Shown: positions 10,213 through 12,860 of the stretch, piece after piece
How the letters are laid out: each line of letters begins with the position of its first letter
Position numbering within the stretch: the stretch's first letter is position 1
From: an uncultured Pelagibacteraceae bacterium
GTDB taxonomy: Bacteria; Pseudomonadota; Alphaproteobacteria; Pelagibacterales; AG-422-B15
Assembly (NCBI GenBank): GCA_902624455.1
Contig: CACNXQ010000008.1
Span: forward strand, 1-47,348
DNA: 47,348 nt
Direction: 5' to 3'
The notes under the pieces: generated by a model
The model's input: the letters and a program-made list of their open reading frames with translations, nothing else
Told to the model about the DNA's origin: nothing
Databases searched by the model: none
Translations under genes and position numbers: made by a program

Positions 10213-12012
10213 ATGTCTGAGATTAAAAACATACGTAATTTTTCTATTATTGCCCACATTGATCATGGTAAATCAACTCTTGCTGATAGATTGATACAGT
10301 TTTGTGGTGGACTATCTGAACGAGAGATGAAAGCTCAAGTGCTTGACTCAATGGACATTGAGCGTGAGAGAGGTATTACCATCAAAGCTCAAACAGTCAG
10401 ACTTGAGTATAATTCTAAGAGTGGAGAAAAATTTTTACTTAATATTATTGATACTCCTGGACATGTAGACTTTAGTTATGAAGTTAATAGGTCTTTATCT
10501 GCATGTGAGGGATCTTTACTTGTGGTTGATGCAAGTCAGGGAGTGGAAGCTCAAACTTTAGCAAACCTTTATCAAGCTATTGATAATGATCATATTATTA
10601 TTCCAGTATTAAATAAAATTGATTTACCTGCATCTGATCCAGAGAGAGTTAAAGCTCAAATCAAAGACATACTCGGCATTGATACGTCTAATGTATTAGA
10701 GATTTCAGCAAAGTCTGGAACTGGGATTGAGGACGTTCTTGAGTCAATTGTTAACCTTTTGCCACCACCCAAAGGTAATGAGAAAGAACCCCTTAAAGCT
10801 ATGCTTGTTGACAGTTGGTATGATGCATACCTTGGTGTTGTAATTCTTGTTCGCGTTATCGATGGAATCTTAAATAAAGGAATGGACGTAAGATTTCATC
10901 AAACAAATACTAAGCACCTCATTGAAAGAGTTGGATGCTTCACTCCAAAAATGGTTGCGAAAGATTGTATCAAAGCCGGTGAACTAGGATTTATTACTGC
11001 TGCAATAAAAGAAGTTGCACAAACTCAAGTAGGTGACACAATTGTTTCTCTTAACGACAAGAAAACACAACCACTTCCTGGCTTTAAGCCCAGTCAGCCC
11101 GTAGTTTTCTGTGGTCTATTCCCAACTAATGCTGCTGATTTTAAATTTTTGAAAGATGCACTTGGAAAACTTAAACTTAATGACTCTAGTTTTCACTACG
11201 AACAAGAAACATCTACTGCTCTTGGAATGGGATTTAGATGTGGATTTTTAGGCTTGCTACATTTGGAAATTATTGTTGAGAGATTAGACCGCGAATTTGA
11301 TTTAGACTTAATTACAACTGCACCAAGTGTTATTTATAATATTGAGCTTACAAATGGTTCTAATTTAGAGCTTCATAATCCAGCAGACATGCCAGAAACT
11401 ATGAACATTAAATCAATTTCTGAACCTTGGATTAAAGCAACTATAATTTGCCCAGATGAGTATTTGGGTAGTATCATTTCACTTTGTGAAGATAAGCGTG
11501 GAATGCAAATAGAGCTTTCATATTCAGGCTCAAGAGTAATTCTAATTTATAAATTGCCTTTAAATGAAATAGTTTTTGATTTCTATGATCGTCTAAAATC
11601 AATTTCAAGTGGATATGCAAGTTTTGATTATGAAATTGACGAATACATTGAGAGTGATTTAGTGAGATTAAGCATACTTGTTAACGATGAGCCTGTTGAT
11701 GCACTATCTATAATTGTTCATAAAAATGCTTCTGAAAAAAAAGGTAGAGCAGTCTGTGAAAAGTTGAAAGAATTAATACCTCGACATCAATTTCATATTC
11801 CTATTCAAGCTGCAATTGGAGGTAAAATTATTGCTCGTGAGACTGTGAGCGGTTACCGCAAGAATGTGATTGATCGTATTCATGGTGGGGGAGCCACAGA
11901 TAGAAAACGTAAGCTTTTAGATAAGCAAAAAAAGGGAAAAAAAAGACTTCGTACTTATGGCAAAGTAGAAATCCCTCAAGAAGCATTTATAGCAGCTCTA
12001 AAAGTTGAATGA
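10213..12012 (+). CDS. lepA: elongation factor 4 (LepA GTPase)
   Basis: Ribosome-bound translational GTPase linked to back-translocation and 30S biogenesis; 599 residues, typical. G-domain motifs are intact: [33 protein letters not shown] and SAKSG. The LepA-specific features follow, including [16 protein letters not shown] and the C-terminal domain with [21 protein letters not shown]. The stop codon is followed without any gap by tRNA-Ser. Confidence 0.97.
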
Positions 12013-12102
12013 GGAAAGGTGGCCGAGTGGTTGAAGGCGCACGCTTGGAAAGCGTGTATGCGGGTGACCGTATCGTGGGTTCGAATCCCATCCTTTCCGC
12101 CA
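12013..12102 (+). tRNA. tRNA-Ser (anticodon GGA), CCA encoded
   Basis: 90-nt type II tRNA. The acceptor stem GGAAAGG (12013-12019) pairs perfectly with CCTTTCC (12092-12098), followed by discriminator G and an encoded CCA. The anticodon loop TTGGAAA (12045-12051) gives GGA, reading UCU/UCC serine codons. A long variable arm, typical of tRNA-Ser, lies around 12057-12074, and the T arm has GTGGG-TTCGAAT-CCCAT. The 5' end abuts the lepA stop, so it must be processed from a lepA transcript or use a promoter inside lepA. Its 3' part is duplicated at 12802-12860. Confidence 0.97.
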
Positions 12103-12103
12103 A
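12045..12103 (+). repeat. att-like direct repeat, copy 1 (3' part of tRNA-Ser)
   Basis: 59 bases running from the first base of the anticodon loop to one base past CCA, perfectly identical to 12802-12860. This is the usual footprint of tyrosine-integrase elements that insert in tRNA genes and restore the 3' end. This copy is part of the intact tRNA. Confidence 0.85.
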
Positions 12104-12180
12104 GCTATTGATATACAATGACAATTTCTCAAAGCTAGAACTGACAATCCTTTAACTGAGTTCAGATTGACCTATTTGGG

Positions 12181-12195
12181 CACACTCTGGTCACA
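12181..12195 (+). repeat. 15-bp direct repeat CACACTCTGGTCACA, copy 1
   Basis: Exact match to 12704-12718; both copies lie inside the att-bounded segment and nowhere else noticed. It contains the half-palindrome TGGTCACA. It could be an arm-type integrase site or a relic of an internal duplication. Confidence 0.6.
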
Positions 12196-12223
12196 ACAGA
12201 AAGGAAAAAGTGATGGCGTTAGC

Positions 12224-12556
12224 CTAGTTGATAGTTTCTCCTGGCGAAATACACATTTCAATGCCTAGGTCATCCATTCTCATCACACATGAGATAACAT
12301 TTTGCAGATTATTAAGGCTATCAAGATTCATATCCATTAAACCTGGTATGTCAGCATATGTATCTCTTTGAAAGTGATAAATTATAAAATATTCGCCGTC
12401 ATCCCAAGATGCGTCTGTCGACGTTAAAGCATAATCACAGTCAACTAATTGATTCAGTGTTTTAACTTCAGATATATCGCTTAATTCACATGATAAGGCA
12501 TTGGATGTAAAAAAAGTTATAATAAAGATAGAAGCGACTGAAAGATATCTGTTCAT
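12224..12556 (-). CDS. small secreted cysteine-containing protein, unknown function
   Basis: 110-residue hypothetical protein. An N-terminal signal peptide is clear (MNRY, then a hydrophobic stretch through residue 18, then SNALSC), so export to the periplasm is expected. The mature part is acidic with four cysteines (about residues 23, 40, 90 and 102) that could form two disulfides. AGAGGA lies 8 bases before the ATG, supporting real translation. It is the only gene inside the att-bounded segment at tRNA-Ser, so it is the cargo of a presumed former mobile element. I recognise no family. Confidence 0.6.
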   Translation of the reverse strand: MNRYLSVASIFIITFFTSNALSCELSDISEVKTLNQLVDCDYALTSTDASWDDGEYFIIYHFQRDTYADIPGLMDMNLDSLNNLQNVISCVMRMDDLGIEMCISPGETIN

Positions 12557-12703
12557 TGCATAATCCTCTAATAAAGAATTGATTTAATAAGCATTACGCT
12601 AATAATTTATAAAAGTTTTTTCAATAGTATTTTTAAATAATTTATTAAATCCTTATTTACTAGGTACAATTATTAATTGATCTAATACGTATGATATGAC
12701 CGT

Positions 12704-12718
12704 CACACTCTGGTCACA
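12704..12718 (+). repeat. 15-bp direct repeat CACACTCTGGTCACA, copy 2
   Basis: Second exact copy, 523 bp after the first and 84 bp before the distal tRNA fragment. It is preceded by GACCGT, giving an imperfect TGACCGTCACA palindrome in this copy. Confidence 0.6.
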
Positions 12719-12801
12719 CTCACTCAAAATAATTCACTTCTTCCCTATATGGATTTCCCCGTTTACAAGGAAAAATTATCCTCTAATCTGTGACTCATAA
12801 T

Positions 12802-12860
12802 TTGGAAAGCGTGTATGCGGGTGACCGTATCGTGGGTTCGAATCCCATCCTTTCCGCCAA
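12802..12860 (+). repeat. att-like direct repeat, copy 2 (orphan tRNA-Ser 3' fragment)
   Basis: Perfect 59-base copy of 12045-12103. It lacks the acceptor 5' strand, D arm and 5' anticodon stem, so it cannot be a functional tRNA. It marks the distal junction of the presumed inserted segment and lies 20 bp before the MFS gene. Confidence 0.85.

Follow-up and report, generated by a model that had tools for sequence, protein, structure and literature searches.

A putative integrase-less cassette at the tRNA-Ser(GGA) gene of a SAR11 genome and its counterparts at tRNA genes of other Pelagibacterales

Introduction

SAR11 genomes are streamlined and contain few known mobile elements. Phages of this group integrate at tRNA genes (PMC6811365, PMC7542561); how genes are transferred in SAR11 is described as unknown (PMC7542561). 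Several described systems come close to the locus reported here. CIMEs are decayed ICEs or IMEs that keep attL and attR and have no integrase (PMC5704250, citing Pavlovic 2004 and Bellanger 2011). Additive flexible genomic islands are found at tRNA genes of Actinomarinales (PMC7771536) and Methylopumilus (PMC10872708), and tycheposons (Hackl et al. 2023) are, as cited in PMC10872708 and PMC11389934, marine cargo elements residing at tRNA genes. CALINs and MITEs are short, consist of recombination sites only, and are moved by a recombinase acting in trans (PMC11389934). The SAR11 locus analyzed in this study retains its att sites and is devoid of integration and transfer genes, as is a CIME; with a length of 816 bp and no recombinase, it falls outside the definition of a tycheposon.

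Structure of the tRNA-Ser locus

The host genome (1.32 Mb in 15 contigs, 99% complete) belongs to SAR11 (Pelagibacterales), and, among named genomes, exact matches to its tRNA-Ser core come exclusively from Pelagibacteraceae/Pelagibacterales (SAR11). In the window, the whole stretch of 47,348 nucleotides that was analyzed, the tRNA-Ser(GGA) gene, which is the integration target, was located by ARAGORN at 12013-12102 of the forward strand, directly 3' of lepA (10213-12012). The repeat finder detected two copies of a 59-nt sequence on this strand, at 12045-12103 and 12802-12860 (59/59 identical, spacing 757), which start at the first base of the anticodon loop (TTGGAAA) and end one base beyond the CCA. 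The first copy is the left attachment core, and the second, a detached 3' part of tRNA-Ser, is the right one; a perfect 59-mer cannot be explained by chance. The cores are separated by 698 bp (12104-12801), so that the cassette measures 816 bp from core to core (12045-12860), or about 0.76 kb as a one-gene piece. Its sole credible ORF (12224-12556, reverse strand) encodes a secreted-like protein of 110 aa with an N-terminal signal-like stretch, which has no significant match in Pfam, PHROG, or NCBIfam and no homologues in 397 SAR11 genomes; its fold, predicted without an alignment, is unusable (pLDDT 37). ARAGORN, the repeat finder, and reading of the ORFs confirm the arrangement described in the earlier note, namely a perfect tRNA-Ser repeat bounding 698 bp with one small secreted-protein gene and no integrase.

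Neither an integrase nor any trace of one is present between the cores, and the single ORF matches no phage family, which sets the locus apart from phage satellites such as PICI, PICMI, and P4-like elements. No ICE, IME, or conjugation gene was seen adjoining the cassette. The locus has the tRNA 3' repeat and the anticodon-loop crossover geometry of a tRNA-targeted tyrosine-integrase element and lacks an integrase of its own. A search with PF00589 detected only two tyrosine recombinases in the host genome, one XerD-like and one XerC-like. That XerC and XerD are the only such enzymes of the genome is compatible with an insertion made by no integrase at all, in which XerCD or homologous recombination captured DNA between tRNA-Ser copies, and, with an element already in place, homologous exchange could draw on the 59-bp identity. 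The crossover in the anticodon loop, not at a dif-like site, argues against this route.

The key feature of the insert, missed by the earlier note, is a second direct repeat, CACACTCTGGTCACA, detected by the repeat finder inside both ends of the insert (12181-12195 and 12704-12718). In each end, a GGTCACA-like motif occurs twice with a period of 11 bp, both pairs reading on the forward strand: the left pair, TTTGGGCACACTCTGGTCACAA (12175-12196), is imperfect and displaced inward by approximately 29 bp compared with most relatives, and the right pair, GTCACACTCTGGTCACACTC (12702-12721), is located 80 bp 5' of the right core. The intervening right-end spacer (12722-12801, forward strand), which contains GTTTACAAGGAAAAATTATCCTCTAATCT, is common to other cassettes. 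By their layout and left-right matching, these pairs appear to be arm-type sites inside both ends, as expected for tRNA-targeted integrase elements. The imperfect and displaced left arm may mean that the window copy is impaired.

Integrase-less cassettes at tRNA genes of SAR11

The order lepA-tRNA-Ser is conserved in the genus, and the DNA 3' of tRNA-Ser is highly variable. A second tRNA-Ser core is found 0.7-3.2 kb downstream in several congeners, in other genera, and in the other SAR11 family. In total, 15 SAR11 genomes contain 17 inter-core segments of 687-3152 bp at tRNA-Ser, some of them in tandem (G008, G019, and G233), and a recognizable integrase is encoded in none of the 17; similar small cassettes also occur at tRNA-Met. 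The cargo is variable and includes type IV pilin-like arrays, a GIY-YIG-type (T5orf172) protein, a methyltransferase-like protein, and small membrane or secreted proteins, as well as cytochrome-c-like and autotransporter-like proteins (named by eye, without a family search). The arrangement could in principle have arisen artificially, during assembly or amplification of a single-cell genome, as most of the SAR11 relatives compared are single-cell assemblies. However, it recurs in 15 separate genomes, in which the inserts differ and the flanks are conserved, and empty counterparts exist; this refutes the artefact explanation for the family and makes it extremely improbable for the window.

Several individual loci deserve mention. 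The tandem arrays of three to five type IV pilin-like genes in L066 (G019:C7, 1-8000) and in the cassette of L055 (G020:C2) encode proteins whose N-termini are nearly identical (MTQKGFTLIELLVVVAIIGVLAAVGVVAF) and whose C-termini diverge, as though pilin variants were being shuffled. In G012, a methyltransferase-like gene separates lepA from tRNA-Ser, on the side of the tRNA gene opposite to the cassettes (L067, G012:C5, 608-1400); this small insertion was set aside as a cassette, having no bounding att copies.

Comparison of occupied and unoccupied sites distinguished insertion from gradual change. The right flank following the last core in G003 and the DNA following the unoccupied tRNA-Ser of G013 are identical at 190 of 200 positions without gaps, whereas in the control comparison the DNA after the first core agrees at only 84 of 163 positions. 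Similarly, the right flanks of the occupied site in G045 and the empty site in G043 share 186/200 positions, and the tRNA-Met cassettes of G027 and G017 have right flanks identical to G013 at 186/200 and 183/200 positions, respectively. As judged from these alignments, the tRNA cassettes of SAR11 are precise insertions and not products of slow divergence. The expectation of the earlier note that relatives would have empty sites or larger islands is thus borne out in its first part, by precise empty sites for sister cassettes; no integrase-bearing island was found at tRNA-Ser. None of the compared genomes has an empty site with the window's own right flank, and for the window this state is inferred.

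The same note regarded the perfect repeat as a sign of recent insertion or of a maintained repeat. Taken alone, the repeat is only suggestive, because this half of the tRNA gene is nearly invariant in the genus. Detached tRNA-Ser cores in relatives do decay, with 3-12 mismatches, and therefore the window copy is probably not old.

Probable arm-type sites and their left-right pairing

The 11-bp tandem motif is strong within the left 120 bp at occupied sites and missing at empty ones, with mean scores of 9.0 versus 3.3 (Mann-Whitney p 7e-8, uncorrected for relatedness between genomes). The motifs themselves differ between elements, being represented by GTCACA, GCCGCAC, ACCGCAC, AGCCCA, TTCCACA, GCCGTCG, and GGTCGTCG. 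Left and right arms of the same element match each other, with a mean best score of 17.4 within versus 10.1 between elements; none of 100,000 permutations scored as high (p about 1e-5, or 4e-5 with one SAR11 family only), the cases and permutations being phylogenetically not fully independent. An unweighted version of the test gave a weaker yet consistent result (p 2.5e-4), the weakening being due to A+T noise. The right arms are located 79-81 bp 5' of the core in tRNA-Ser elements of the genus where these arms are intact, and 145-146 bp in tRNA-Met elements; common ancestry of the right end accounts for part of this constancy. Insertion through homologous recombination or XerCD would account neither for the paired 11-bp arms and the match between left and right nor for a layout common to integrase-bearing elements, and we consider this explanation very improbable.

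Integrase-bearing elements of SAR11

A profile search for Arm-DNA-bind_3 together with the tyrosine-recombinase domain identified intact P4-type integrases in 7 of 397 SAR11 genomes, a first count that may miss some. These integrases (415-467 aa) belong to elements at tRNA-Thr(GGT) in G007, tRNA-Met in G020, tRNA-Thr(TGT) in G101, G239, and G392, tRNA-Val(TAC) in G292, and tRNA-Arg(ACG) in G053; the G007 site was read from tRNA pieces at both ends, as no whole tRNA was called there. Each element has an arm pair between the tRNA gene and the integrase gene or at the integrase end, and a matching far-end pair is present wherever the far end is in view: TGGTGTAAATATGGTGTAAA in G007, TTGGTACAGTTTTGGTACAG / TTGGTACACTTTTGGTACAC in G020, TTTGTAGTCAATTTGTAGTCAA in G101, and TTGCGTAGACAATGCGTAGAT in G292. 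The elements thus share with the cassettes the tRNA core and the paired 11-bp arms and differ from them in encoding an integrase and, in most cases, a primase-helicase or a DNA polymerase of family A, as is typical for phages and satellites. Because intact integrase elements have the same layout, the 11-bp motif of the cassettes is very likely the arm site of an integrase.

Loci L187, L188, L189, L190, L202, and L100, with P4-type integrases at tRNA-Thr(TGT), tRNA-Val(TAC), tRNA-Arg(ACG), and tRNA-Thr(GGT), are satellite- or provirus-like. Separately, a region adjoining tRNA-Gly(GCC) in G031 (L101, G031:C14, 3195-8965) has a weak match to a REP_ORF2-G2P replication protein. Two ORFs of this region, of 193 and 439 aa, resemble tyrosine recombinases, and the region may represent a SAR11 provirus similar to filamentous phages.

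No autonomous element or phage with the tRNA-Ser(GGA) core was detected in the 397 SAR11 genomes, IMG/VR, or INPHARED. In particular, the exact att cores of both SAR11 lineages have no matches in IMG/VR, and SAR11 integrase queries gave none in IMG/VR or INPHARED (two SAR11 integrases in the case of the latter). Matches of the att core in INPHARED were rejected as helper candidates, being from unrelated phages only and largely tRNA-Ser genes. The strict pattern GTCACANNNNNGTCACA has a single occurrence among the 43 genomes of the genus, the right arm of the window, and no helper with a GTCACA-type arm was found elsewhere in the genus. Such absence is weak evidence, because most of the SAR11 genomes compared are incomplete single-cell assemblies.

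Horizontal spread of cassettes and their ends

At tRNA-Met, the 5.6-kb element of G020, with an integrase of 459 aa, and the 1.25-kb cassettes of G028 and G033, with a glyoxalase-like gene and an integrase cut to 95 aa, share the arms TTGGTACAGTTTTGGTACA / TTGGTACACTTTTGGTACAC. The cassettes of G028 and G033, two species, are 99.0% identical, compared with 93.1% and 92.8% in their flanks. So close a similarity of cassettes with a broken integrase gene points to transfer after the break and hence to an integrase acting in trans. On this sequence comparison, the identity seems hard to explain otherwise; homologous exchange with its ends at the element edges retains a small residual probability. 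A third tRNA-Met cassette (G029) contains an epimerase-like gene, and its arms have changed in step at both ends (GGGACA/GTGACA). As for the glyoxalase-like cargo, three other species have 94% identical chromosomal copies (L238, L239, and L240), which adjoin a gene for an ABC transporter ATPase and are not near any tRNA gene; this suggests that the cargo is a captured chromosomal gene.

Right ends, too, have moved between species. The right end with the core is 98.8% identical over 160 bp in G019b and G020 versus 70-73% for other shared chromosomal DNA, 99% over 98 bp in G003 and G008 versus a background of 72-82%, and 90% over 159 bp in the window and G020 versus 83% on the lepA-tRNA side and 74% in an MFS gene. 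Since near-identical right ends accompany different cargo, ends and cargo recombine.

These data bear on the two alternatives of the earlier note, an island deleted to a scar or a minimal element relying on a trans-acting integrase for its movement. If the first were correct, a larger integrase-bearing island or prophage at tRNA-Ser would have lost most of its interior, including the integrase gene, and the remainder would be immobile. The truncated integrase gene inside the G028 and G033 cassettes, the imperfect, displaced left arm of the window, and a core-left arm-right end-core remnant in G047 are consistent with such decay. This remnant (L174, G047:C2, reverse strand, 2400-2614) comprises, in 214 bp, a core, a left arm, a right end, and a degraded core, and represents a cassette deleted down to little beyond its ends. 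On the other hand, both arm pairs are kept in many independent small insertions with different cargo, the cassette with the broken integrase gene spread after the break, right ends are nearly identical in distant hosts with different cargo, and the window insert is free of any integrase trace, which together make a dead scar unlikely. The second alternative is favored by the empty sites, the paired arms, the SAR11-wide family, the Xer-only genome, and the horizontal movement.

Proposed mechanism

We consider it likely that 12045-12860 is a non-autonomous cassette which was integrated, and could probably be mobilized, by a P4-type integrase supplied in trans. The integrase, from an incoming satellite, prophage, or similar element, would bind both arm pairs, and crossover in the anticodon loop would bring the cassette circle into tRNA-Ser, so that the tRNA gene is restored on the left side and the 3' half that belonged to the host ends up on the right. 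Such an enzyme would have to combine a GTCACA-type arm specificity with a tRNA-Ser core specificity; given one, the window copy may still be able to excise. Between cells, the DNA might travel by transformation, in phage or satellite particles, or in vesicles. The family probably originated from autonomous elements that lost the integrase gene, kept both ends, and then exchanged cargo.

If this is true, integrase-free cassettes would be a cheap means of gene gain for SAR11: each gene would take up a few hundred bases, and rare satellites would bear the cost of the enzyme, as the frequency of intact P4-type integrases would suggest. The arm sites provide a sequence signature for finding cassettes and pairing them with helper integrases, and thus the idea is directly testable.

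Comparison with known systems

In the open-access literature, with incomplete coverage of the relevant papers, we found no account of SAR11 cassettes that lack an integrase and have arm sites paired and specific to the element. CIMEs resemble the SAR11 cassettes in being att-flanked, in having no integration or transfer genes, in forming tandem arrays, and in needing the integrase of a partner. However, as described, they are decayed conjugative elements moved in cis after accretion with an ICE, whereas the SAR11 cassettes are 0.7-3 kb in size, carry mostly one to three cargo genes and both arm pairs, and occur singly or, when in tandem, beside further integrase-less cassettes only.

The additive islands are likewise small cassettes (330 bp and larger) at tRNA genes, in which the tRNA end is directly repeated; most of the encoded proteins are unknown. 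They come from other hosts, and the accessible portions of those reports describe no arm sites, element-specific left-right pairing, or autonomous partner with the same arms. Tycheposons, as they are summarized in PMC10872708, are also cargo elements at tRNA genes of abundant marine bacteria and are linked to tyrosine recombinases; according to that description they are 4-200 kbp long and contain a tyrosine recombinase, whereas the SAR11 cassettes fall below this size range and encode no such enzyme.

Finally, CALINs and MITEs share with the SAR11 cassettes a short, site-only organization and, probably, a recombinase supplied in trans. The sites differ: CALINs use integron attC and MITEs use transposase ends, whereas the SAR11 cassettes have tRNA att cores and putative arm-type sites of a tyrosine integrase. 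We tentatively suggest that SAR11 may possess a tRNA cassette economy, in which single-gene cassettes with full attachment machinery, an arm "address" diversified in step at both ends, and tandem stacking would be moved between species by the integrases of rare satellites, as a tRNA-integrase counterpart of MITEs and CALINs.
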